From a virus, in the IMG/VR virus record IMGVR_UViG_3300029319_000002, positions 154,512-196,048 of that record: DNA of 41,537 nt. The stretch is one strand, 5' to 3'. Below the pieces are notes generated by a model. That model had not been told where the DNA came from and ran no database searches. It saw only the letters and a list, made by a program, of their open reading frames with translations. Below, one piece after another: positions 4,052 to 38,219 of this stretch (position 1 is the stretch's first letter; each line of letters opens with the position of its first letter). The position numbers and the translations under genes are program-made.

Positions 4052-4645
4052 ATGAAAACTAAGAAAATGCTACTCCTATCAGTAATTGCAGCAGCTTCTA
4101 TAGTTCCAGTTCTTTTTACTCCTCCTCCCGTAGAAAATCCTCCTGAGGTAATTGAGATTAAAGTAAAAAAATCTAAACCACTATCTTGGAAATGTCCTGA
4201 TTGCACTCCTGAAGAACAATATGTCCTCACAGAACTCCAAGAACACACCCGCATTACAGATCGTAATGCTCTTGCAACGATCCTGGGTAACATTAAACAG
4301 GAGAGCAAGTTTATTTCCAACATATGCGAGGGAGGGGCTAGAGTTTCTTACAGGGATTGTCATCGCGGTGGGTATGGTATTGTTCAGTGGACCTCAGTAA
4401 ATCGTTATAATAATCTTGGTAAGTTCTGTGAGAAGTATAGTTGTGACCCTAGCAGTCTAGAGGGTCAAACTCGTTATATGATTAACGAAAATATTTTTCA
4501 AAAACAACTTCCCGAGTTTGAGGGAAGTGGTAAGACCATCTCTCAATATATGATTCCTGCCTACTATTGGTTGGGATGGGGAATCAAAGGTAAACGTGAG
4601 TTGTATGCATATGATTATGTGGATCAAATGGTTCTAGAGGCTTGA
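4052..4645 (+). CDS. Exported tail-lysozyme-domain protein (putative peptidoglycan hydrolase)
   Basis: 197 aa. The N-terminus (MKTKKMLLLSVIAAASIVPVL) is a basic n-region followed by a hydrophobic segment: a signal peptide or signal anchor, so the enzyme acts outside the cytoplasmic membrane. A proline-rich linker (24-45) leads to a domain matching the phage tail lysozyme family: RNALATILGNIKQESKF (probable catalytic Glu84), CEGG, then HRGGYGIVQWTSVNRYNNL. Several Cys (CPDC, C92, C103, C127, C135) could form disulphides in the periplasm. It likely cuts peptidoglycan during lysis or injection. Candidate late and extended -10 promoters lie just upstream, and its stop codon overlaps the -35 of the tRNA-cluster promoter. 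Confidence 0.8.
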   Translation: MKTKKMLLLSVIAAASIVPVLFTPPPVENPPEVIEIKVKKSKPLSWKCPDCTPEEQYVLTELQEHTRITDRNALATILGNIKQESKFISNICEGGARVSYRDCHRGGYGIVQWTSVNRYNNLGKFCEKYSCDPSSLEGQTRYMINENIFQKQLPEFEGSGKTISQYMIPAYYWLGWGIKGKRELYAYDYVDQMVLEA

Positions 4646-4677
4646 CCTAGATGACTCCCCTGGTTATAATACAGGGG
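4642..4677 (+). promoter_or_regulatory. Promoter TTGACC-N17-TATAAT with -10 in a hairpin loop
   Basis: TTGACC (4642-4647) overlaps the lysozyme stop codon, the spacer is 17 bp, and TATAAT is perfect (4665-4670). The -10 lies in the loop of a hairpin CCCCTG (4657-4662) / CAGGGG (4672-4677). It is expected to drive the tRNA cluster starting 17 nt downstream. The hairpin has no T run. Confidence 0.85.
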
Positions 4678-4686
4678 TCAGCACAA

Positions 4687-4758
4687 GGGACTATCGCATA
4701 TTGGTTAATGCCCTCTGCTTATAACGGAGTGAACCGAGTTCAATTCTCGGTAGTCCTA
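4687..4758 (+). tRNA. tRNA-Ile (anticodon TAT)
   Basis: Cloverleaf by eye: acceptor GGGACTA / TAGTCCT (first pair G-U), D stem GCAT / ATGC, anticodon stem CTCTG / CGGAG with loop CTTATAA, T arm CCGAG-TTCAATT-CTCGG, discriminator A. CCA is not encoded. The UAU anticodon reads AUA, a codon common in AT-rich phages. Bacteria usually read it with a lysidine-modified CAU tRNA, so a UAU isoacceptor is notable. Confidence 0.88.
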
Positions 4759-4760
4759 TT

Positions 4761-4833
4761 GCTCCCTTAGCAATCTGGTGAATGCACCGAACTCATAATT
4801 CGGCTGAGGTGAGTTCGATCCTCACAGGGAGCA
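4761..4833 (+). tRNA. tRNA with CAT anticodon (Met, or Ile2)
   Basis: Acceptor GCTCCCT / AGGGAGC (7 bp), anticodon stem CCGAA / TTCGG with loop CTCATAA, T arm GTGAG-TTCGATC-CTCAC, discriminator A. The anticodon alone cannot separate elongator Met from lysidine-modified Ile2. An Ile-UAU gene directly upstream makes Met slightly more likely. CCA is not encoded. Confidence 0.85.
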
Positions 4834-4853
4834 CCTATATAAAGAAAACTTTT

Positions 4854-5009
4854 ATGAGACCTGAAACCCGTCAATCAATGGAAATGCTGTTTAAAGCAAA
4901 ATGGAACTTGCCAAAAGCAGCAGAAAATGCTAATCTTACGAACAAGGAAATGAAAATCACCTTCAACGAATACTGTGCTTTTCATCCTCCTACTTGGGAA
5001 ACTAAGTAA
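4854..5009 (+). CDS. Small conserved-type hypothetical protein (51 aa) within tRNA cluster
   Basis: Unknown function. The product starts MRPETRQSMEMLFKAKW and contains a helix-rich pattern (NLPKAAENANLTNKEMK) that looks like a small helix-turn-helix: two short helices joined by a turn and 'LT..EMK' as a recognition helix. I infer possible nucleic-acid binding, with low confidence. It sits between the Met/Ile2 and Leu tRNA genes and ends 6 nt before the latter, so it shares their transcript. I recall similar proteins beside tRNA genes in other cyanophages. Confidence 0.7.
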   Translation: MRPETRQSMEMLFKAKWNLPKAAENANLTNKEMKITFNEYCAFHPPTWETK

Positions 5010-5015
5010 TTTTTT

Positions 5016-5100
5016 GCGAGTATGGCGGAATCGGTAGACGCACCAGACTTAAAATCTGTTGGGCATTATGCCCGTGGGAGTTCAAGTCTCCCTACTCGCA
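5016..5100 (+). tRNA. tRNA-Leu (anticodon TAA)
   Basis: 85 nt with the long variable arm of class II tRNAs (GGGCATTATGCCC hairpin). Acceptor GCGAGTA / TACTCGC, anticodon stem CAGA / TCTG with loop CTTAAAA, T arm GGGAG-TTCAAGT-CTCCC, discriminator A. Confidence 0.93.
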
Positions 5101-5104
5101 CCTT

Positions 5105-5178
5105 GGGCAAGTAGCTCAGATGGATAGAGCATCGCACTTCTAATGCGTTGGTCGGGGGTTCGAGTCCCTCCTTGCCTG
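5105..5178 (+). tRNA. tRNA-Arg (anticodon TCT)
   Basis: Acceptor GGGCAAG / CTTGCCT (first pair G-U), D stem GCTC / GAGC, anticodon stem CGCA / TGCG with loop CTTCTAA, T arm GGGGG-TTCGAGT-CCCTC (one G-U pair), discriminator G. Reads AGA/AGG, which are frequent in this phage. Confidence 0.92.
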
Positions 5179-5202
5179 TTGGATCTAACGATCCATTGTC
5201 CC

Positions 5203-5210
5203 TCTAAATA
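5203..5210 (+). promoter_or_regulatory. Candidate late promoter TCTAAATA
   Basis: TCTAAATA ends 19 nt before the HNH gene start. The identical octamer precedes the tail-fibre gene (31601-31608) and, on the minus strand, the gene starting at 10467. A short GGAT/ATCC hairpin lies just upstream (5181-5194). Confidence 0.45.
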
Positions 5211-5229
5211 AAATTGTGTATGTTCAGTT

Positions 5230-5700
5230 ATGGAAACTATCCAACCTAATTCTACTGTTTTAGTTTTAAATAGTTCATACGAACCTCTCAATTTTACATC
5301 ATGGAAACGTGCCATAATTCTTTTGTTTAAAGAAAAAGCACAGTTTGTATCAAAAAAAGTTATTCGTTTGGTTAACTTTGTTCGGATACCATTCCATACT
5401 CAGCAGTTGGTGCATCCCACAAAGTCAAATATTATCAAGAGAGATAATAATCAATGTCAATATTGTGGATCTAGAAGTAATTTAACTGTAGATCATATTA
5501 TTCCCAGATCAAAGGGTGGACAAAACACCTGGGAGAATATGGTTGCATGTTGTGAATCTTGTAATGCCAAAAAAGGAGATCAAGATCTCAATAAAATAGA
5601 TATGGAACTTAGGTCTATTCCTAGGAAACCGATGAATAAAGTGATGCTAATCTTGAATAATACAAGAGATGATGAGTGGCAACAATTCCTCTTTTGTTAA
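5230..5700 (+). CDS. HNH endonuclease
   Basis: 156 aa with a C-terminal HNH domain: zinc pair CQYC (C76, C79), the DH motif in LTVDHIIPRSKGG (H89), Asn in WENMV, and the second zinc pair in CCESCNAKKGD. The N-terminal ~65 residues (VLVLNSSYEPLNFTSWKRA) match a widespread cyanobacterial/phage HNH family rather than a classical intron-homing enzyme. It likely nicks or cuts DNA in the cytoplasm, perhaps in packaging, recombination or exclusion. It sits inside the tRNA cluster, one base from the Thr tRNA gene, recalling the homing endonuclease SegB in the T4 tRNA cluster. A late-type octamer lies upstream. Confidence 0.85.
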   Translation: METIQPNSTVLVLNSSYEPLNFTSWKRAIILLFKEKAQFVSKKVIRLVNFVRIPFHTQQLVHPTKSNIIKRDNNQCQYCGSRSNLTVDHIIPRSKGGQNTWENMVACCESCNAKKGDQDLNKIDMELRSIPRKPMNKVMLILNNTRDDEWQQFLFC

Positions 5701-16336: not shown

Positions 16337-17146
16337 ATGATCGGTTTTAACCATTTAGGAAGAATGGGCAGACTTGGAAATCAAATGTTCCAATATGCTG
16401 CTCTGAGGGGAATTGCAAAGAATATGGGATATGATTTTTGTTTACCATTACATAAAGATGCTGTAAATGATGGTATTGGAAATATGCTCAAGACAGAACT
16501 GTTTGATTGTTTTGAGATGTCCAGTATTAATCCATTGAACATACAACTTATTGATCCAGATAGACCAACTTTACAGGAACAAAGATTTCATTTTAATCAA
16601 AACATTTTTAATGATTGTCCCGATTGGGTTAGTCTGCATGGATATTTTCAAACTGAAAAGTATTTCACTAATGTAGAGAAAATTATTCGTAAGGATTTTA
16701 AATTTAAGGAAGAGTATCGTATTCCTTGTGAAGAAATGATCGAAGGGGAAGATTATATTGCTCTTCATATTCGTAGAACTGACTATCTTCAAAATGCCGC
16801 AAATCATAATAATCTCTCTCTTGATTATTATGAACAAGCATTATCAAAGTTCTCTGAAGATAGTTCAGTAATTATCTTTTCTGACGACCCTGAGTGGTGT
16901 GGTGAGCAAGATATATTCTCTGATGATAGATTTTTAGTTTCTGAGAATACAAGTGGATATGTTGATCTATGTCTGATGAGTATGTGTAAACATTTCATTA
17001 TTGCTAACTCTACATTCTCTTGGTGGGGTGCCTGGTTGTCTAAGAATAAGGATAAGAGGGTGATTGCACCATCAGAGTGGTTTGGTCCAATGAATAATCA
17101 TCTAGATACTAAAGACATTTATTGTGATGGTTGGGAGATTATTTAA
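16337..17146 (+). CDS. Glycosyltransferase family 11 (alpha-1,2-fucosyltransferase-like)
   Basis: 269 aa with all GT11 landmarks: GRLGNQMFQYA (11-21), SLHGYFQTEKYF, the GDP-sugar-binding HxRRxD motif as HIRRTDY (144-150), IFSDDPEWC and the C-terminal NSTFSWWGAWL. GT11 enzymes transfer L-fucose from GDP-fucose to the 2-position of galactose, acting on the cytoplasmic side. No GDP-fucose synthase is in the window, but the adjacent epimerase should make GDP-L-galactose, which differs from GDP-L-fucose by one hydroxyl; use of that donor is my inference. TAATG overlap with the GT6 gene. Confidence 0.88.
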   Translation: MIGFNHLGRMGRLGNQMFQYAALRGIAKNMGYDFCLPLHKDAVNDGIGNMLKTELFDCFEMSSINPLNIQLIDPDRPTLQEQRFHFNQNIFNDCPDWVSLHGYFQTEKYFTNVEKIIRKDFKFKEEYRIPCEEMIEGEDYIALHIRRTDYLQNAANHNNLSLDYYEQALSKFSEDSSVIIFSDDPEWCGEQDIFSDDRFLVSENTSGYVDLCLMSMCKHFIIANSTFSWWGAWLSKNKDKRVIAPSEWFGPMNNHLDTKDIYCDGWEII

Positions 17147-17865
17147 TGAAGGTTGCAGTCATTTTTATTGGAACTGGCAAGTATCTTGATTTCTTACCAA
17201 AGTATTGGGAGAAAGTCGAATCCAATTTTCTCCCTGGTGTAAAGAAAACAATCTTTGCATTTACTGATGGTGAACTTTCGGATGCTCCCGATAATATTAG
17301 AGTGGTAAAGCAAGAACATCTTGAATGGCCATTTATTACACTGCTAAGATTTGGAATCATTAATAAGATGAAGGAAGAATTGATGGAGTATGACCAACTT
17401 GTATTCATGGATGCTGACACTGTGGTGTATAATACTGTCACTGTAGAAGAATTTTTTTCAGATAAACCATTCTTTGGGGTTCATCATCCTTGTCACTTCA
17501 TGGGTTTTCCTCCACACAATAAACTGCCTGGTGCATTTGAAACAGATGCAAGATCACAAGGATCTATCGATCTAGATCAATACTCCCCTAAAGTGTATTA
17601 TCAGGGATGTCTATGGGGTGGAAAGGTTCCTGAAGTATTTGAGTTGATTGATCTTATTGATGAAAGAACTCAAGTTGATGTTAAGAATAATACTATTCCT
17701 GTCTGGCATGATGAAAGTCACATCAACAGATTCTTTATTGAAAATGAAGATAGGGTGCATCTTCTAGGTCCAGAATATGCATATCCAGAAGTATTTGAAA
17801 GTCATTGCGACTTTGATCCAAAAATTGTACACTTGGCAAAAGATAACTCTAAGTATCAGATATGA
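17146..17865 (+). CDS. Glycosyltransferase family 6 (ABO blood-group / alpha-1,3-Gal(NAc) transferase family)
   Basis: 239 aa, resembling the catalytic domain of vertebrate GT6 enzymes without the membrane stem. Seen are KYWEKVESNFLPGVKKTIF, the metal-binding DxD as VFMDADTVV (D89, D91), YYQGCLWGGKVPEVFEL, and the acceptor/catalytic WHDESHINRFF (E190). Family members add Gal or GalNAc alpha-1,3 to galactose; the ABO transferases need a Fuc-alpha-1,2-Gal acceptor, which is the product of the GT11 encoded just upstream. Many bacterial GT6 proteins have NxN in place of DxD; this one keeps DxD. GT6 genes have been reported from a cyanophage before, as I recall. Start at 17146 by TAATG coupling; an earlier in-frame TTG is less likely. 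Confidence 0.85.
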   Translation: MKVAVIFIGTGKYLDFLPKYWEKVESNFLPGVKKTIFAFTDGELSDAPDNIRVVKQEHLEWPFITLLRFGIINKMKEELMEYDQLVFMDADTVVYNTVTVEEFFSDKPFFGVHHPCHFMGFPPHNKLPGAFETDARSQGSIDLDQYSPKVYYQGCLWGGKVPEVFELIDLIDERTQVDVKNNTIPVWHDESHINRFFIENEDRVHLLGPEYAYPEVFESHCDFDPKIVHLAKDNSKYQI

Positions 17866-18398
17866 TTAAACTCGTAATTTTAGATGTTGATGGTGTCATG
17901 ACTGATGGCACAAAACATTACAACAGATTTGGAAGAGTTATTGCAAAAACTTTTTGTGATAAAGATTGGACTGCCATTAAAAGGTTTCGTGCAATTGGTG
18001 TTCCTGTAGTTTTTCTAACTGGAGATTCATATAATGAAAAGATCTTGAAGAAAAGAAATCTTCCGGTAATTGTAAATCGTGGTAAAGATTTTCATAGGGA
18101 TAAGGCGGATTATCTTGATCAATTATTAGAAGAGTATGATTGTACTCCCGAAGATGTTGCATATCTTGGTGATGATCTATTTGATTATGGTATAATGAAT
18201 GAAGTTGGTCATCCATATTGCCCCTTTGATACACCAAGGATAGTGCATGATGTTGCTGCAGTTCTTCCATGTGCAGGTGGATCTAATGTAGTCATGGCTC
18301 TTTTTGATGAACTTGAAAGTGAGGGATTGATTCCTATAGTTCCTTATGATAAAGTAATGGAAAAAATTTATGAACTTGATTTAAAGGAGAAGTTTTGA
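17862..18398 (+). CDS. HAD-superfamily sugar-phosphate phosphatase, KdsC-like
   Basis: 178 aa, the size of capless KdsC-type (C0) phosphatases. Motif I is DVDGVMTDG (D8, D10), motif II Thr in VFLTGDS, motif III Lys in NRGKDF, and motif IV YLGDDLFD. It is followed by the KdsC-type HPYCPFDTPRIVHDVAAVLP and a Gly-rich C-terminal loop (CAGGSN). KdsC hydrolyses KDO-8-phosphate; relatives remove phosphate from nonulosonates or other sugar acids. Here it is followed by a sugar kinase and a nucleotidyltransferase-isomerase, so it could dephosphorylate an intermediate in an activated-sugar pathway. ATGA and TGATG overlaps tie it to both neighbours. The exact substrate is unknown. Confidence 0.82.
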   Translation: MIKLVILDVDGVMTDGTKHYNRFGRVIAKTFCDKDWTAIKRFRAIGVPVVFLTGDSYNEKILKKRNLPVIVNRGKDFHRDKADYLDQLLEEYDCTPEDVAYLGDDLFDYGIMNEVGHPYCPFDTPRIVHDVAAVLPCAGGSNVVMALFDELESEGLIPIVPYDKVMEKIYELDLKEKF

Positions 18399-19066
18399 TG
18401 AAAGATGTTTCGTTATATGGACACTTGACGATTGATACTATCATTGATGGTGTATCGGAAATTAAAACTTTAGGATCAATTGCTAATGTGTGGAAAGCAT
18501 TAGTTCATTTAGATTCATCTATAAAGTTGGGTCTATCTCCAATTGATATTGGTGAGGCATTAATTTATATCGATCATGATTCTTCTAGAAGATATTCAAA
18601 GGCAGCACTTAATCTAAAGAAGATCTCTCCTAGACTAGTTCCTTCTCATATTACACACTTGTGTTATCTCAATGAAATATCTGATACCACATTTATCTCC
18701 ACACTTTCCGGTATTGTTACTGCAGATGTTTGTCCAGGAAAATCTTTGGATAGAGATCTCCTACGATTTGTAGATTATCTTTTTATATCTGATGAAGACG
18801 TAGATGACTTTGATTCATTAGTTGATTCTACTAAAGGTTGGGTAATACTTCATAGTTCTTCTGGAAGTGTATTTTCTGATGGAATAGAAGAGTACACATA
18901 TGAACTTCCTAAAGACAAAATTTTATCCAATGTAAATGTACTTGGAGCAGGTGATATGTTTGCTGCTTGTTTCTTGTATAAATTATTACTGAATATAGGT
19001 ATAATCACTGATTGGGTTGAATATTCACACTTAAGAACCACTGAATTTATACAGAGTTACAAATGA
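18398..19066 (+). CDS. PfkB/ribokinase-family sugar kinase (short form)
   Basis: 222 aa, shorter than the usual ~300-aa PfkB kinases. The C-terminal signature with the catalytic base is intact: NVNVLGAGDMFAACFLYKLL (GAGD, D186). The N-terminal substrate loop is present in reduced form (LGSIANVWKAL in place of LGGxxxNxA). Expected to phosphorylate a sugar or sugar phosphate with ATP. It lies between an HAD phosphatase and a nucleotidyltransferase, the same catalytic set as in the heptose (GmhA-HldE-GmhB) pathway. The ATG at 18398 has a GGAGA site 9 nt upstream and overlaps TGA. The missing length probably falls in the lid and the central sheet, so weak or altered activity is possible. Confidence 0.75.
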   Translation: MKDVSLYGHLTIDTIIDGVSEIKTLGSIANVWKALVHLDSSIKLGLSPIDIGEALIYIDHDSSRRYSKAALNLKKISPRLVPSHITHLCYLNEISDTTFISTLSGIVTADVCPGKSLDRDLLRFVDYLFISDEDVDDFDSLVDSTKGWVILHSSSGSVFSDGIEEYTYELPKDKILSNVNVLGAGDMFAACFLYKLLLNIGIITDWVEYSHLRTTEFIQSYK

Positions 19067-20220
19067 AACCAAATATTCTTGTACCGATGGCTGGTTTGGG
19101 CAGTCGATTTATCAAAGAAGGATTTAAAGTTCCCAAACAATTAATCAATATTAAAGATAAACATTTGATTGATATCTCTCTAGATTGTTTAAATTATGAG
19201 GGATGCAATCTCATTTTCGTAGTTAGAGATGAAACTGTTTACAATTTTCACATGGATGAACTTCTTCGTAAGAAGTTTGGTGATGATATTAAAGTTGTAG
19301 TTCTAGATAAACTCACTGACGGATCCGTATGCAGTTGTTTATATGCTGAAGAGTATATTGATAATGATGCACCTTTAGTCATTCATACTTTGGACATTGA
19401 ATTCCGACCAGTATTTAATCCACATACAATGAATGATTTGAATGGTGATGGGTTGTTATTAACCTTTAAATCTAACTCATCAAACTACAGTTATGCAAAG
19501 GTCAATGAAGACGGATATGTAACTGAAACTGCTGAGAAGAAAGCAATTAGTAGTAATGCATGTGTAGGAATTTATGGATTCAAGAAAGGATCTGATTTCT
19601 GTAAGTATGCTAGAGAAATGATTGAACGTGACTTGAGAACTAAAAATGAGTTCTATATTTCACCTCTTTACAATCTTCTTATTGAGGATGGTAAGAAGAT
19701 TATGACTGAACCTGTGGATAAGATGCATGTCTTTGGAACACCTGATGAATTCCAGTTTTATAAGGATAACGTTACCCGTCGTATTGGTGATAAACCTATT
19801 GCCCTTTGTTCTGATCATTCTGGATTTGATGCGAAAGAAGAATTCAAAGGACTGCTAGAAAAGCACGGTTTGAGGTATATTGATTTTGGAACTATCCTGA
19901 ATAAAGATTGTGATTATCGAGATTACATTGCACAGGCAGTTAAATCTATTGGTGAAAGAGATTGCGACTATGCTTTTGGATTTTGTAGAACTGGTCAAGG
20001 TGTGAATATTTGTGCTAATAAGTATAAAGGTATTCGTTCTGCTCTGATTTATGATGAGTTTGCAATGGAAATGGCAATCAGACACAATTGTGCTAACTTT
20101 TTTGCTATTCCTGCTAAAGATGTGGATGAAATAATTCTTGAAAAGTATCTTGCAATAGCATCTCTTCATACATTTGATGGAGGTCGTCATCAAATTCGTA
20201 TTCAGGAGTTAGAAAAATGA
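19063..20220 (+). CDS. Bifunctional sugar nucleotidyltransferase / RpiB-type isomerase fusion
   Basis: 385 aa with two domains. Residues 1-~235 form an NTP-transferase: PMAGLGSRFIKEGFKVPKQ (the GxGxR...PK signature, 8-26), an acidic pair in HTLDIEF (metal-binding), and a C-terminal GTPDEF. Residues ~245-385 match ribose-5-phosphate isomerase B/LacA-LacB: ALCSDHSGFDAKEE, YIDFGT, DYRDYIAQAV, the active-site Cys loop FCRTGQGVNICANK (C308), GIRSALIYD, RHNCANF and FDGGRHQIR. The fusion would isomerise a sugar phosphate and activate a sugar-1-phosphate with a nucleotide. I do not know this architecture from characterised enzymes. Overlaps with both neighbours (ATGA). Confidence 0.85.
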   Translation: MKPNILVPMAGLGSRFIKEGFKVPKQLINIKDKHLIDISLDCLNYEGCNLIFVVRDETVYNFHMDELLRKKFGDDIKVVVLDKLTDGSVCSCLYAEEYIDNDAPLVIHTLDIEFRPVFNPHTMNDLNGDGLLLTFKSNSSNYSYAKVNEDGYVTETAEKKAISSNACVGIYGFKKGSDFCKYAREMIERDLRTKNEFYISPLYNLLIEDGKKIMTEPVDKMHVFGTPDEFQFYKDNVTRRIGDKPIALCSDHSGFDAKEEFKGLLEKHGLRYIDFGTILNKDCDYRDYIAQAVKSIGERDCDYAFGFCRTGQGVNICANKYKGIRSALIYDEFAMEMAIRHNCANFFAIPAKDVDEIILEKYLAIASLHTFDGGRHQIRIQELEK

Positions 20221-31637: not shown

Positions 31638-34600
31638 ATGGATATTAACGATCCAAATATGATTGATGAAGAACTTCCTTCAGTGAAAAATTTTATGCAG
31701 AATGAATCTAATCTTCCTTCCATTAATGATTTTATTTCTACTAATGAGGATGAGGATCTATCTTCTTGTGATGAGTTTGTAGAAATAACTGAAAAGAAAG
31801 TAATTGAAGAAGATAGTCATCAACTAGTAGATTCCGAAGACAATTCTACTAAAATTATTATTAGTTTAATTGAATCGTTAAGAAATAGTATACCTGAAGT
31901 CAAATCATATGACGAAGATCTGTATGATTTGATGAATCGTATTGAAGAAGTAAGAAAAGATATTCCCGAAGTAAAGGATTATGATGAACAGATTTCTGAA
32001 TTACAGGAATCTATTCAGGAAGTAAAGAGTAAAAATTTTCCTGACTTCAGGTGGATTGCTAGTACCTTTACCACTATTGAAGAAGATTATGATAATCTTA
32101 ACTCTAATTACGATAAACTTAATTCATTATTAGCAAGATATAAAGGAAACTTTGATTTAGAAATTAGTAATATTGCTGAGTCAATAGATATTTCAAAATT
32201 TGAGAGTGATACAAATTTTAAAAAAGTTAATGAGGAATTCGTTACCAAAATAGATGAGACGAAAAAGATTATAGATGCTCGTCTAAAAGAAACATCTAAA
32301 AATATTACTTCTATAAAGAAGGAATATAAAAACAGTGATAAAGAAATAAGAGAAGAAATAAAAAAAGAATATCTTAGATTGAAGGAAGATGTTTCTAAGT
32401 CTCTAAAAAATTTAAAGCACTCTGATAGTAGTCTTAATGATAAAATCGATCAAGTAAATTCTTGTTTTGAAACACTTAAAAGTGAAATTGAAAATCTTCC
32501 TGAAGTAAAATGTTATGATGAGGAAATTAAAGATGTAAATGATTCTGTTAGCACTGTTAAAAATTTAGTTAAAATTCTTGAAAATAAACTAAACAAAAAA
32601 ACTTCTATTATTGATAAATTAAATGAAAAGATTTCTAGTATTGAAGAAAGTATCTTAGTTTCTAATGAGTCGGAAAAAATTCAAGAGGATCCTCTGACTC
32701 CATTAGATCAAAATTTTGCTACTTTAAGTGATCTTTCAAATCATTACAGATTATTCATTAATCGAATTCAACAGCAACTTACTTCACTTGGTGGTGGAGG
32801 TGAAACTCGTCTTGAGTTTTTGGATGACGTTGATAGAAACTCGGTTAAAGTTGATGGTAAGTATCTACAATATCAGGCATCAACTGGAAAGTTCATTGGT
32901 GCTGATGCTTCTGGTGGTGGTGGATCTATTGCAGGTATTAATACAACTGGAACTTCGATATTTAATAATTTAAATGTAACTGGTGTTTCTACAATTACAG
33001 GTAATACTTTTTTCCAATCTAATGTCCATCTTGGAGATAATGATCAACTTAGACTTGGAGACTCCAATGAATTTAAAGTAATTCATAGAGCTGCTGGTGA
33101 CTCAACTATTACCAGTAGTGGAGCTGTTTATGTTGGCAGTACTGCAAAAGTTAATATTGCCTCTGGATATAACACTAACTTCATGGCGAGATTCACACCT
33201 GCTGGATCTGCAGAACTTTATCATAATTACGTCAAAAAATTTGAAACCACTGCTTCTGGTATTAATGTCACAGGACATACTGAAACTGATACCTTAAGAG
33301 TTTCTGGTGTTTCTACATTCCAAAGTCATGTTCATCTTGGTGATGACGATGAATTAAGGATTGGTGATGGTAATGATTTAAAACTTTGGCATAACGGATC
33401 TAATAGTATTATTAATGATGAGGGAGTTGGTGACTTATACTTAGGTGGTAATTCTAGCGTTAATATTACTAATGCAGCACTTTCGGAATTTAAAGCAAAG
33501 TTTATTACAGATGGAGCAGTAGAACTTTATCATGATGCTTCTAAGAAATTTGAAACCACTGGTGCTGGTGTAACTGTTTTTGGAACTACTGAATCGCAAC
33601 AGTTAAATGTCTCTGGTATTTCTACATTCCAAGGTAATGTTCATCTTGGAGATAATGACAGATTAAGAATTGGTGATGGAAATGATTTAGAGTTGTATCA
33701 TGATGGAACTGATGACCTCATTCGCAGTTCTGGAACTACTCTTAAAATCACAGGAACTAGAGTTGTAGTAAACAATGCTGCCAATAATGCAAATCAGGCA
33801 GTATTTACTGCTGGTGGATCAGTAGCACTCTACCATAATGCATCCAAAAAATTTGAAACCACTGCTTCTGGTATTAATGTCACAGGACATACTGAAACTG
33901 ATACATTAAATGTTTCTGGTATTTCTACATTCCAAAATAACATAAAACTTACCACAGATAATAAAAGATTAATATTTGGTAATGGTGATGATTTAGAGAT
34001 TTTCCATAATGGATCTGACAACTATATTGTATCCAACACTGGATCCTTTAATATCAAATCTCCTGCTTTTAAATATTTAAATGCCTCAGATTCAACTGGT
34101 AGGGTAAAACTTTTTTATGGCAACTCTGCAAGGTTTGAAACCACCGGGATAGGTGTAACTATTATTAATGGAACATCAGATACTGCAACCATTACTGGTC
34201 CATCAAATCTAATCATTGACCCTGCAGTTGTAGGTGATAACACTGGTATTGTAAGAATCAAAGGTGATCTATTTGTAGATGGTACAACAACTCAGATTAA
34301 TTCTACAAGTTTAGAAATCGCAGATTTTGTAGTTGGCATTGCTTCTACTGCCACCACAGATTTATTGGCAGATGGTGCTGGTATTAAAATTGGTCCTAAT
34401 AATACTTTCTTATATGAACATAATGGTGGCACTAATCCATCATTGAAGTCAAGTGAAAATCTTAATGTTGCCTCTGGAAAAGTATATCAAATTGCAGAAA
34501 CCGAAAGATTATCTGCAGATACATTAAGCGTAGGAACTGGTGCCACAGTTCATTCTCCTGCCTCTAATACTTTAACCTTAGGTACTAATGGTACTGAAAG

Positions 34601-37600
34601 ACTTCGTATAACTTCTGCTGGTCTGGTCGGAATCGGAACTGATAATCCAGTAGAAATATTAGATGTACTAACACCTGCAGGTGGAAGAATACAGTTTGAT
34701 AAATCTGGAAGTATTGGAAGTCGTATCTTGTTTGCAAATGCAGATGGAACGGTAAGAGCAAAAATTAATAATTTTGGTGGATCTAACGAAACTTTACAAT
34801 TAGATGCTCCAAGTAAAATTGATCTTGCTATTAATGGAGCAGAAAAAGTTCGCTTAGATGCCAATGGTAGATTATTGGTAGGAACACTTTCAAGTTCTGG
34901 AGATCACATCTTAGAAGTTAATAGTGGCACTGATAATGAGGGCATAAAGGTTGTCAGCACTGATGCAGGTTCTTATATTCGTTTTGCTGATAATAGTACT
35001 ACGGCACAAATTCGTCTTGGAGCTGTTGGCAATGACTTCAAAATTGATGTAAATGCATCTGAAAGACTTCGTATAGATTCCAATGGAGATGTGGGTATCG
35101 GAATTGCTGATCCACAAGAAAGGTTACATGTGGCAAGAATTGTCATGATAACCGGCAATACGCCACAAATCAGACTAAATGCTAATGATTCTGATGCATC
35201 TGATGATGATAGAACGATGCTCGGGCAGGCAACGGGTAATGGTCATTTTGTAAACAGTGCTGTTGATAATGACACCATTCTTAGAGGAACTGCAACTGGT
35301 AATTTACTATTTGGTATTGGCACAGCAGAAAAATTCCGTATAACTTCTGCTGGTAATATTGGTATCGGGGAGAACAATCCCTCATCAATACTCCATGTTA
35401 AGAAAACTGGTGATCCAAATATAATTCAAGAAAACTCAGCTAATAATTCTTTAGATAGAAATAATACTTATTCTTTCCAGTATTCTGATGGTGAGGGAGC
35501 ATTTGTAAAAGCTACAAGACCAAGCAGTGGATCAAAAACTGATACATACCTCGCATTTGGATCTGGTGGTAGTACAGAAAGAGTTCGCATATCTTCAAGT
35601 GGAAATGTTGGTATTAATGAATCAAATCCTGCTTATACATTAGACCTTGGTGAATCAAACTCGACAATTCGTCTTGTAGCCGGACATAATGGAACAGCAC
35701 TTCGTGTTGGTGCTGGTGGTGGAGGCAATGATGTGACTCTTATTAGAGTTGATGGTTCATCAGAAAACGACGGCCATGATGGAGAGTCTGATAGTGCTAT
35801 GTATGGATTCTCTCTTAAGTATATGGGGTCTAGGAGCGGAAACTCTAATTCCCTTTCAGTATTCTCCGATAATCAACAAGCAACTCAAGTTGAAGCAGTT
35901 ACAGTCTTTCAAAATGGCACGATTGGTATTAATAAAACTTTTCCTTCAGAAAGACTTGATGTTGGTGGAACTACAAAAACTGAACAGTTAAATGTCACTG
36001 GTGTTTCTACATTTACTAGTGATGTATCATTTGGTTCTACCATAACATTTGGTGATAATGATCAAATTATTATGGGTGATGGACCTGATTTGAAACTTTA
36101 TCATGATGGTAGTAACAGTTATGTAGAAGATACTGGAACTGGTGCTCTCATCATGAAGGGAAGTACTGTTCGTTTTAGATCCACTACTAACGAGAATATG
36201 CTTAGTGCTTCTCAAAATGGAGCAATAAGTCTTTATCACGATAATAACGTAAAACTTGAAACCACTGCTTCTGGTATTGATGTAACTGGTCACACTGAAA
36301 CTGATACCTTAAGAGTTTCTGGTGTTTCTACCTTTACGGGAACAACCAATCATACATTTACAAACATAACAAGATCGTCTAATGGAGTAGTATTACAATT
36401 AAGAAACACCAGCACTGCTAATAATGCTCATGTGGATCAACGATTTGTCATTGATGGAAATTCTAGAGCTGGTTTTAGGGGGCAGATAAATGGAGCAAAT
36501 TTAGGTGGATTACTAAGATTTTATACTGCTGCTGATACACAAGTACTCACAGAAAGAGCAGTTATTGATCATCAGGGAAGATTTGGAATAAACGTCACTT
36601 CTCCAACAACGACTTTAGATGTTGGTGGAAATGCTAAAATTTCTGGTGATTTGGAAGTAACTGGTGATGTAAAACTTACCACAGATAATAAAAGATTAAT
36701 ATTTGGTGATACTGATGATTTAGAGATTTTCCATAATGGAGTTAGCAATTACATTGTATCCAACACTGGAACCTTTAATATCAAATCTCCCGCTTATAAT
36801 TATTTAAAAGCATTTAGTTCAAATGGTAGGGTGCAACTTTTTTATGGAAACTCTGCAAAGTTTGAAACCACTGGTTATGGTGTTACTGTCTTTGGAACCA
36901 CACAAACTCAACAATTGAATGTCTCTGGTATAACAACTCTCAATTCACTTCAAGTAGAAACTTTTTCCACATTTAATGGAAATACAAAACACTTTGATGG
37001 AAAGTACGCAAACTTTGGTAATAGCACTGACTTACAGATAGTTCATGATGGTGCTAATTCTGTTATTCAAAATGCAACTGGTCAATTCTTTATTGATAAT
37101 AATGCAAGTGGCGGTGATTTATTCTTAAGAGCTAATGATAATGTTGTTATCAGAATTGATGGTAATGATACTGTGCTTACTGCTCAAACTGGTGGTATTG
37201 ATGTAACAGGTCATACTGAGACTGATACCTTAAATGTTTCTGGTATTTCTACATTTGCTAATGCTATTTCTGTTGCTGAGACAATTCAACACACAGGAGA
37301 TACAAATACTTCTATCAGTTTCCCTTCTAATGATTACATTAGACTTACAACCAGTAATTCCTCTAGACTTAATGCTACTCCAAATGGTTACATTCTACTA
37401 GGAACAAATAGTGAACCTTCTGGTGGTGATGCTCATGCAAGAAATGCAAGATTAGTCATTGTTGGAAGAATTGGTAATGCTGCTGATAGTGGTCGTCTCA
37501 ATCTACAACGTGGATCAGCAGCATCTAATGGTTCTAGTATTGGAAGTATTAGTTTTACTGATAGTAGTAATAATGCCTATGCAAGGATTGAAACAATAGC

Positions 37601-38219
37601 CGATGCTGCGCCGGGAACTGATGATTTTCCAGGTGCTATTGTTTTTAGCACCACACCAGACGGATCTGCATCACCAACAGAAAGACTGCGAATCGAATCA
37701 AATGGCAGGGTATGCATAAACCGCACAACATCTCAAAGCGGTGGGCAGCTGTCTGTCGATTACACCAACGGAGTCACTGCAGGTCTTGCGGTCAAAGATA
37801 CACAGACAACCGGCACTGGCATCGTCCTGCACGTTGTAAATGGATCGGGATCAATTATTGGCGGAATCTCACAGAACCAGTCATCCACTTCTTTCAACAC
37901 TTCTTCTGACCATCGATTAAAAGAAAATGTTGTTAATCTTGATGGTGCTATTGATCGAGTTAAGCAACTTGCTCCAAAGAGATTTAACTTTATTGCTGAT
38001 GCTGATACAACAGTCGATGGATTCCTTGCCCATGAAGCGCAAGTTGTTGTCCCAGAAGCTGTTACTGGAACGCACAACGAAGTTGATGATGATGGCAATG
38101 CTGTTATGCAAGGCATTGACCAATCCAAATTAGTACCATTGCTTACTGCTGCACTTCAAGAAGCTATCTCCAAGATTGAAACACTTGAAACTAAAGTTGC
38201 GGCACTTGAAGGTAATTGA
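31638..38219 (+). CDS. Giant tail fibre protein with intramolecular chaperone (Peptidase S74) domain
   Basis: 2193 aa. Residues 1-~365 are a long trimerising coiled coil with an acidic start (SVKNFMQNESNLPSINDFIS) and PEVKxYDE segments (IPEVKSYDEDLYDL, IPEVKDYDEQISEL, LPEVKCYDEEIKDV). From ~390 the shaft consists of repeated beta-strand units. One type is VSGVSTF...LGDxDxLRIGDGNDLxLYHDG...KFETTASG. A second, with seven copies, is RLRI-S-G-VGIG-xNP (GTERLRITSAGLVGIGTDNP). The C-terminal ~104 residues form the S74 chaperone (SDHRLKENVVNLDGAIDRVK to the end), with the self-cleavage Ser (S2090) before D-H-R-L-K. It would fold the trimer, then cleave off. The fibre probably binds the host receptor. 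Two pairs of near-identical DNA segments suggest internal duplication. Confidence 0.88.
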   Translation: MDINDPNMIDEELPSVKNFMQNESNLPSINDFISTNEDEDLSSCDEFVEITEKKVIEEDSHQLVDSEDNSTKIIISLIESLRNSIPEVKSYDEDLYDLMNRIEEVRKDIPEVKDYDEQISELQESIQEVKSKNFPDFRWIASTFTTIEEDYDNLNSNYDKLNSLLARYKGNFDLEISNIAESIDISKFESDTNFKKVNEEFVTKIDETKKIIDARLKETSKNITSIKKEYKNSDKEIREEIKKEYLRLKEDVSKSLKNLKHSDSSLNDKIDQVNSCFETLKSEIENLPEVKCYDEEIKDVNDSVSTVKNLVKILENKLNKKTSIIDKLNEKISSIEESILVSNESEKIQEDPLTPLDQNFATLSDLSNHYRLFINRIQQQLTSLGGGGETRLEFLDDVDRNSVKVDGKYLQYQASTGKFIGADASGGGGSIAGINTTGTSIFNNLNVTGVSTITGNTFFQSNVHLGDNDQLRLGDSNEFKVIHRAAGDSTITSSGAVYVGSTAKVNIASGYNTNFMARFTPAGSAELYHNYVKKFETTASGINVTGHTETDTLRVSGVSTFQSHVHLGDDDELRIGDGNDLKLWHNGSNSIINDEGVGDLYLGGNSSVNITNAALSEFKAKFITDGAVELYHDASKKFETTGAGVTVFGTTESQQLNVSGISTFQGNVHLGDNDRLRIGDGNDLELYHDGTDDLIRSSGTTLKITGTRVVVNNAANNANQAVFTAGGSVALYHNASKKFETTASGINVTGHTETDTLNVSGISTFQNNIKLTTDNKRLIFGNGDDLEIFHNGSDNYIVSNTGSFNIKSPAFKYLNASDSTGRVKLFYGNSARFETTGIGVTIINGTSDTATITGPSNLIIDPAVVGDNTGIVRIKGDLFVDGTTTQINSTSLEIADFVVGIASTATTDLLADGAGIKIGPNNTFLYEHNGGTNPSLKSSENLNVASGKVYQIAETERLSADTLSVGTGATVHSPASNTLTLGTNGTERLRITSAGLVGIGTDNPVEILDVLTPAGGRIQFDKSGSIGSRILFANADGTVRAKINNFGGSNETLQLDAPSKIDLAINGAEKVRLDANGRLLVGTLSSSGDHILEVNSGTDNEGIKVVSTDAGSYIRFADNSTTAQIRLGAVGNDFKIDVNASERLRIDSNGDVGIGIADPQERLHVARIVMITGNTPQIRLNANDSDASDDDRTMLGQATGNGHFVNSAVDNDTILRGTATGNLLFGIGTAEKFRITSAGNIGIGENNPSSILHVKKTGDPNIIQENSANNSLDRNNTYSFQYSDGEGAFVKATRPSSGSKTDTYLAFGSGGSTERVRISSSGNVGINESNPAYTLDLGESNSTIRLVAGHNGTALRVGAGGGGNDVTLIRVDGSSENDGHDGESDSAMYGFSLKYMGSRSGNSNSLSVFSDNQQATQVEAVTVFQNGTIGINKTFPSERLDVGGTTKTEQLNVTGVSTFTSDVSFGSTITFGDNDQIIMGDGPDLKLYHDGSNSYVEDTGTGALIMKGSTVRFRSTTNENMLSASQNGAISLYHDNNVKLETTASGIDVTGHTETDTLRVSGVSTFTGTTNHTFTNITRSSNGVVLQLRNTSTANNAHVDQRFVIDGNSRAGFRGQINGANLGGLLRFYTAADTQVLTERAVIDHQGRFGINVTSPTTTLDVGGNAKISGDLEVTGDVKLTTDNKRLIFGDTDDLEIFHNGVSNYIVSNTGTFNIKSPAYNYLKAFSSNGRVQLFYGNSAKFETTGYGVTVFGTTQTQQLNVSGITTLNSLQVETFSTFNGNTKHFDGKYANFGNSTDLQIVHDGANSVIQNATGQFFIDNNASGGDLFLRANDNVVIRIDGNDTVLTAQTGGIDVTGHTETDTLNVSGISTFANAISVAETIQHTGDTNTSISFPSNDYIRLTTSNSSRLNATPNGYILLGTNSEPSGGDAHARNARLVIVGRIGNAADSGRLNLQRGSAASNGSSIGSISFTDSSNNAYARIETIADAAPGTDDFPGAIVFSTTPDGSASPTERLRIESNGRVCINRTTSQSGGQLSVDYTNGVTAGLAVKDTQTTGTGIVLHVVNGSGSIIGGISQNQSSTSFNTSSDHRLKENVVNLDGAIDRVKQLAPKRFNFIADADTTVDGFLAHEAQVVVPEAVTGTHNEVDDDGNAVMQGIDQSKLVPLLTAALQEAISKIETLETKVAALEGN
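33233..33292 (+). repeat. 60-bp exact direct repeat in tail-fibre gene, copy 1
   Basis: A 60-nt stretch encoding KKFETTASGINVTGHTETDT is identical to 33845-33904, 612 bp (204 codons) away and in frame. Exact identity at the DNA level, not just the protein level, points to recent copying or gene conversion. Confidence 0.85.
33845..33904 (+). repeat. 60-bp exact direct repeat in tail-fibre gene, copy 2
   Basis: Identical to 33233-33292. Recombination between the two copies would remove or add exactly 204 codons and keep the frame. Confidence 0.85.
33943..34070 (+). repeat. Second direct repeat in tail-fibre gene, copy 1 (38-bp exact core)
   Basis: The first 38 bases (33943-33980) are identical to 36670-36707, 2727 bp (909 codons) away and in frame. 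Similarity continues for about 100 further bases. Confidence 0.75.
36670..36800 (+). repeat. Second direct repeat in tail-fibre gene, copy 2
   Basis: Counterpart of 33943-34070, encoding KLTTDNKRLIFG and the following strand ('DDLEIFHNG'). The distance keeps the reading frame. Confidence 0.75.

Follow-up and report, generated by a model that had tools for sequence, protein, structure and literature searches.

A viral fusion of a sugar nucleotidyltransferase with an RpiB/LacAB-family isomerase domain, predicted to act within a four-gene sugar-activation cassette

The window, by which we mean the whole 41,537-nucleotide stretch analysed, lies at the end of a virus record of 196 kb that carries psbA/psbD-type genes. 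Together with the pstS-like and ribonucleotide reductase genes read from the sequence of this record, these genes point to a cyanomyovirus. The fusion gene described here lies within a glycan gene island, alongside genes for an NAD-dependent epimerase, GT11 and GT6 glycosyltransferases, and a carbamoyltransferase (Table 1). It is the third of four genes: those for a KdsC-like HAD phosphatase and a PfkB-like protein come before it and that for a cupin-like protein comes after it. Neighboring genes of the four overlap by about 4 bases. In phage islands of this kind unassigned sugar genes abound, and the activities of this cassette can be read and tested step by step. Two further observations concern the window. 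Glycosyltransferase genes of GT11 and of GT6, the ABO-type family, adjoin in a cyanophage here (16337-17865). In addition, a protein of 2193 aa rich in repeated segments (31638-38219) may be a tail or fibre protein ending in a chaperone-like part.

Table 1. The fusion gene, its parts and its neighbors, with positions in the window
Feature	Position	Strand	Basis or remark
Cassette gene 1, KdsC-like HAD phosphatase, 178 aa	17862..18398	+	Nearest PDB chains mostly KdsC/YrbI phosphatases
Cassette gene 2, small PfkB-like sugar kinase, 223 aa (TTG 18395 or ATG 18398)	18395..19066	+	PfkB weak match
Nucleotidyltransferase-RpiB fusion gene	19063-20220	+	One ATG-to-stop frame, 385 aa
N-terminal sugar-1-phosphate-type nucleotidyltransferase domain, aa 1-235	19063..19767	+	PF00483, PDB 4evw, motif conservation in 78 fusions
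Motifs of the nucleotidyltransferase domain			GxGxR loop, P24-K25, D111, E158-K159
Linker, 8 residues, aa 236-243, NVTRRIGD	19768..19791	+	Alignment, per-region dN/dS
C-terminal RpiB/LacAB-family sugar-phosphate isomerase domain, aa 244-385	19792..20217	+	PF02502, TIGR00689
Predicted catalytic residues of the isomerase domain			D251, H252, C308, T310, H341, N342, R375, H376, R379
Active-site loop C308-R309-T310-G311-Q312-G313	19984..20001	+	R309 in place of the usual Gly after the catalytic Cys
Cassette gene 4, cupin-like protein, 106 aa	20217..20537	+	phrog_24762; cupin matches weak, best E 0.05
Glycerophosphodiesterase-like small protein, 152 aa	20534..20992	+	Frequent neighbor, outside the strict core

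The earlier note had described one 385-residue frame joining a nucleotidyltransferase (NTase) to a full RpiB/LacAB domain, a description borne out by the open frame and by Pfam matches at residues 10-176 and 246-383. The latter match, to LacAB_rpiB (PF02502), covered the whole model with an E-value of 4.8e-30 (104.8 bits; cut-off 24.7). The former, to NTP_transferase (PF00483), reached 21.8 bits, marginally above its cut-off of 21.2; among related fusions, L226 scored 35.6 bits with this model and L200 gave no match. The first half of the window protein alone matched PDB 4evw, an NDP-sugar pyrophosphorylase, at 4e-19. Both features that the note had pointed out, the loop FCRTGQG and the end FDGGRH, were confirmed, and they align with the E. 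coli RpiB active site.

The fusion was also found as one continuous frame in three phage records. The copies of the Synechococcus phages SynMITS9220M01 (SynMITS9220M01_192, L039:8001-9158) and Bellamy (gp206, L040:8001-9158) are 91% and 87.5% identical to the window protein, respectively. A first IMG/VR scan recovered at least 37 full-length contigs with the fusion frame, and at least 87 distinct fused viral sequences were obtained after duplicate removal; both counts are lower bounds, as the scans relied on short conserved peptides and gave at most 80 loci. We aligned 78 of the fused proteins, the lowest identity to the window protein being 41%. Where dN/dS could be computed (the window protein against ten others), it was about 0.03-0.13 in both domains, both of which are under purifying selection, and the linker was more variable than either. 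An artefact of frameshift or assembly, raised as an alternative in the earlier note, was ruled out by the identical frame in at least 87 distinct sequences and by the low dN/dS. An AlphaFold2 model of the fusion was poor (mean pLDDT 54.9), and no conclusion was built on it.

The impression that this domain pair is without a characterised example also held. Pfam and NCBIfam contain no fused model, our literature searches for the NTase and RpiB domain pair found nothing, and the PHROG family that matches the protein almost end to end (phrog_3980; residues 1-381, 9.2e-118) is listed with function unknown. In GenBank, both Bellamy gp206 and SynMITS9220M01_192 are labeled “phosphatase”, a label backed by neither domain.

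The motif residues of the NTase domain are strongly conserved: G11, P24, K25, D111, E158 and K159 occur in all 78 aligned fusions, R15 in 77 and G13 in 71. The E-K motif is typical of sugar-1-phosphate nucleotidyltransferases, and it is these enzymes that the profile of the NTase family matched among solved structures. The domain could instead activate a terminal phosphate, in the manner of CTP:fructose-6-phosphate or ribitol-5-phosphate cytidylyltransferases. In that case the isomerase would provide the required aldo or keto form, and the kinase and phosphatase would belong to another branch. There is a model for this in C. jejuni HS5.18, which converts fructose 6-phosphate to CDP-6-D-fructose (PMC10918830), and such enzymes occur in similar capsule clusters. 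We nevertheless consider it improbable: HS5.18 belongs to PF01128 (IspD) (PMC10918830), whereas the window protein had no PF01128 match at 0.01 in Pfam and scored only 18.8 bits with TIGR00453 (cut-off 181.3). The profile matches to sugar-1-phosphate enzymes also argue against it, and it would leave the strict linkage to the KdsC-like and PfkB-like genes without explanation.

The isomerase domain passed the model of the RpiB/LacA/LacB subfamily (TIGR00689; 93.6 bits, cut-off 88.3) and failed the RpiB equivalog model (TIGR01120; 92.2 bits, cut-off 138.65), so that its substrate need not be ribose 5-phosphate. Among NCBIfam models compared on the window domain, those of RpiB scored above those of LacA, LacB and erythrulose isomerases. 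In characterised RpiB enzymes, a Cys acts as the base, a Thr as proton relay, a His in ring opening and Arg in phosphate binding (PMC4783025, PMC3755991). Across the 78 aligned fusions, D251, H252, C308, H341, N342, R375 and R379 are invariant, and position 310 is Thr or Ser. The catalytic Cys is followed by Arg in all 78 fused domains, whereas the 13 stand-alone RpiB proteins that we read all have Gly there. Two further positions depart from the usual pattern. At the Pro47 position (Leishmania numbering), 55 of the 78 fusions have Arg or Lys. The position equivalent to Arg113, a phosphate-binding residue of M. tuberculosis RpiB, holds Lys in the window protein and a non-basic residue in two second-clade members, as judged from an alignment to E. 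coli RpiB.

The invariant Arg309, together with the change at the Pro47 position, suggests that the substrate has changed. In LacB, a hexose phosphate is bound by a relocated Arg (PMC3755991), and a similarly relocated phosphate-binding residue in the fused domain is our guess by analogy. Because of the Cys-Arg site, the Pro47 and Arg113 positions and the failed equivalog cut-off, we label the domain an RpiB/LacAB-family isomerase, which is as far as its sequence takes the assignment, a specific RpiB identity not being demonstrable. The name ribose-5-phosphate isomerase B, given to it previously, was thus right as to the family (PF02502, TIGR00689) and went too far as to the enzyme, given the TIGR01120 result and the unusual Cys-Arg site. 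The Cys-Arg signature provides a simple annotation marker for proteins now labeled “phosphatase” or unknown.

The gene order around the fusion is well conserved, and the genes flanking the cassette vary between fused loci. Among the matches listed, the KdsC-like gene lies upstream in 77 of 79 testable fused loci and a PfkB-like gene adjoins the fusion in the same number; in 77 of 85 loci the cupin gene directly follows the fusion. The cupin gene is absent from its place in a divergent group (L196, L200, L201, L203, L212, L215, L217 and L218). A homologue of the glycerophosphodiesterase-like gene lies at some point within the fetched stretch in 75 of 87 fused loci, again among the matches listed. 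In L226, what reads from the sequence as a glycerophosphodiesterase-like domain is fused to the KdsC-like phosphatase (L226:1164-2150), linking this frequent neighbor to the cassette. Both upstream proteins of the window score below their model cut-offs: the KdsC-like protein reaches 72.1 bits with TIGR01670 (cut-off 106.95) and the PfkB-like protein 19.5 bits (Pfam cut-off 25.8), the latter keeping a GAGD motif. At the divergent locus L200, the kinase position is occupied by a full-length PfkB protein (2e-15) with PDB matches to sugar kinases, and in L226 the automated count missed a 245-aa frame with the GAGD motif at that place.

A tree of NTase domains unites the fused proteins in one clade (support 0.87), and a single fusion event is therefore the simplest reading. 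The sister of this clade consists of unfused NTases with KdsC-like and PfkB-like neighbors (L197-L199, L202 and L209; joint support 0.98), cassettes thus without an isomerase; no RpiB gene was found elsewhere in these five fragments. Since the unfused sisters have the same KdsC-PfkB neighbors, the cassette probably came first, with the isomerase added once; alternatively, the unfused sister group may have lost the isomerase. The NTase family has also joined other partners in phages. In S-SKS1 it is fused to a DHBP synthase (RibB) with a near full-length Pfam match (L042:5998-7425), in S-SM2 to a second NTase (two NTase matches), and in S-8S55 and B23 to a HAD_2 domain (L041:5344-6729, L043:5344-6717), a combination shared by 35 non-redundant IMG/VR proteins. 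One non-redundant set comprised 80 NTase-RpiB, 35 HAD-NTase, 12 NTase and 3 NTase-NTase proteins.

The fusion is carried by cyanobacterial viruses and some other aquatic viruses. Restriction to cyanophages with photosynthesis genes is not supported: of ten other records that carry divergent fusion members and were tested, several of them 150-260 kb long, none showed a psbA/psbD-type gene. Two queries against 72,556 plasmids yielded no bacterial fusion; the few long matches, so far as they were opened or spanned most of the query, proved to be NTase-only proteins or tandem NTases. Among 296 genomes from the phylum of G001, the only carrier was a phage contig, and a strict-peptide scan of a species-level genome collection returned that same contig alone. 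An apparent bacterial fusion in a Crocinitomicaceae MAG (L051, PACT01000001.1) was rejected as phage sequence binned into the MAG, because its contig of 15,998 bases matches the IMG/VR contig of L008 in both length and gene content. As the bacterial search was systematic for the phylum of G001, restriction of the fusion to viruses is a provisional conclusion. RpiB hits in three fecal “phage” scaffolds (L046, L049 and L050) and in a 634-kb phage (L047) were set aside as well, the frames read in L046, L047 and L049 being stand-alone RpiB. The RpiB family was found in seven of 14 control genomes; Synechococcus elongatus, one of the 14, is not among the seven.

On balance, we favor a reading in which the fusion acts as a bifunctional enzyme and the four genes of the phage cassette together lead to a nucleotide-activated aldose, with a pentose phosphate as the most likely substrate. 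The RpiB/LacAB domain would convert a ketose phosphate to an aldose phosphate (step 1), the PfkB-like protein would phosphorylate C1 (step 2), the KdsC-like HAD phosphatase would take off the terminal phosphate (step 3) and the N-terminal NTase domain would join the sugar 1-phosphate to an NTP (step 4). In its pentose version, the route would run from ribulose 5-phosphate through ribose 5-phosphate to NDP-ribose or a derivative. The product would probably be used by the phage’s own glycosyltransferases, decorating the surface of the cell or the virus. The first and last steps would thus sit on one polypeptide. The architecture, the conserved catalytic residues, the cassette and the phylogeny are what the analysis shows directly; every reaction and the sequence of steps are inferred, as are sugar, nucleotide and acceptor.

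Neighboring and partner genes bear on the choice of sugar. A split transketolase pair (about 210 and 160 aa) lies directly upstream of the cassette in the unfused L202 (676-1784) and L209 (663-1770), and the fused L200 has such a pair downstream (4154-5267). Transketolase is another route to ribose 5-phosphate, and its products include sedoheptulose 7-phosphate and erythrose 4-phosphate; DHBP synthase, the NTase partner in S-SKS1, uses ribulose 5-phosphate. We favor a pentose because the RpiB models outscore the others, because transketolase is a source of ribose 5-phosphate and because the S-SKS1 partner uses ribulose 5-phosphate. Against the pentose and cassette reading, the PfkB-like protein of the window is short and below cut-off, the RpiB equivalog model failed, and ribose 5-phosphate may be the wrong substrate. 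The other products of transketolase and the cassettes without any isomerase (L197-L199, L202 and L209) also count against it.

The same four steps could act on a heptulose, hexulose or tetrulose phosphate and lead to a rare NDP-heptose, NDP-hexose or NDP-tetrose, which we place on the unlikely side but regard as the main rival. Such a substrate would fit the passing of the broad subfamily model only, the invariant Arg309, the basic residues at the Pro47 position and the sedoheptulose 7-phosphate that transketolase neighbors could yield. It has a precedent in LacB, where a relocated Arg holds a hexose phosphate (PMC3755991), and heptose genes have already been annotated in cyanophages (PMC7378029). 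It sits less well with the stronger matches to the RpiB models than to those of LacA, LacB and erythrulose isomerases. In addition, no match to the SIS_2 isomerase (PF13580) was found in the genome of the window, in Bellamy or in the record of L078, a result that bears only on the usual heptose route. A KDO or nonulosonate pathway was rejected separately, as no match to the synthase (PF00793) or cytidylyltransferase (PF02348) models, and hence no KdsA/KdsB-type gene, was found in three records that may be incomplete.

The fusion might also serve co-expression or stability only, the RpiB domain acting apart from the NTase in general pentose metabolism during infection, with ribose 5-phosphate going to nucleotides. 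Cyanophages redirect host carbon flow (talC, zwf, gnd), and a supply of ribose 5-phosphate would be a plausible aim. We judge it very improbable, given that viral copies of this RpiB type are fused and sit inside a glycan cassette, and that Arg309 and the failed equivalog test point to a specialised isomerase.

We entertain, tentatively and as the less probable case, the broader idea that enzyme and cassette are a viral invention, forming a route to an activated sugar (perhaps NDP-ribose) undescribed in cells and including a Cys-Arg isomerase of new specificity. On this idea, the fused steps 1 and 4 would divert an intermediate of the pentose-phosphate pathway or the Calvin cycle directly into surface glycan. 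The cassette could reveal which activated sugar is made, and whether it is drawn from the pentose-phosphate pool that cyanophages redirect.

Several known systems resemble parts of the fusion. The 4evw-like NDP-sugar pyrophosphorylases and the plasmid NTases of P. aeruginosa PA83, Scandinavium and Roseinatronobacter belong to the same NTase family, at about 35% identity. The plasmid genes adjoin or lie near the same cupin as the phage cassette, often with a HAD gene too, yet they are not fused to RpiB, and the KdsC-PfkB pair was not seen in the stretches read. Most members of the phage clade have PKQ, whereas the bacterial NTases have PKP. The cyanophage HAD-NTase fusions (S-8S55, B23 and others) share the NTase family and the setting in phage glycan islands; unlike the window fusion, they have an N-terminal HAD_2 partner, lack RpiB and form a separate clade. 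RpiB/LacA/LacB isomerases (PF02502, TIGR00689) resemble the fusion over the whole isomerase domain, including the Cys base and the other catalytic residues, and differ in having no NTase partner and Cys-Gly rather than Cys-Arg at the base; the fusion, in addition, fails the RpiB equivalog model.

The closest functional parallel is the NDP-heptose pathway (GmhA, HldE, GmhB), which comprises the same four activities, namely isomerase, C1 kinase, phosphatase and nucleotidyltransferase (PMC10948575, PMC11573728). HldE unites steps 2 and 4 of that route (PMC10948575, PMC11573728), and tridomain synthetases, with viral examples too, combine isomerase, kinase and nucleotidyltransferase (PMC11573728). 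These enzymes provide a functional precedent, by unrelated domains, for joining steps 1 and 4. The suggestion made beforehand that the fusion ties the first and last reactions of one pathway therefore gains from the KdsC-like and PfkB-like genes immediately upstream, which would fill the middle steps, and loses its novelty in that non-consecutive steps have been joined before. The phage system differs in its RpiB/LacAB isomerase in place of the SIS-type GmhA, its NTase of PF00483 type, its KdsC-like phosphatase and, compared with HldE and the tridomain synthetases, its kinase, which is a separate small protein. As an independent counterpart of HldE and the tridomain synthetases, the fusion offers a test of whether the joining of distant steps in sugar activation recurs.
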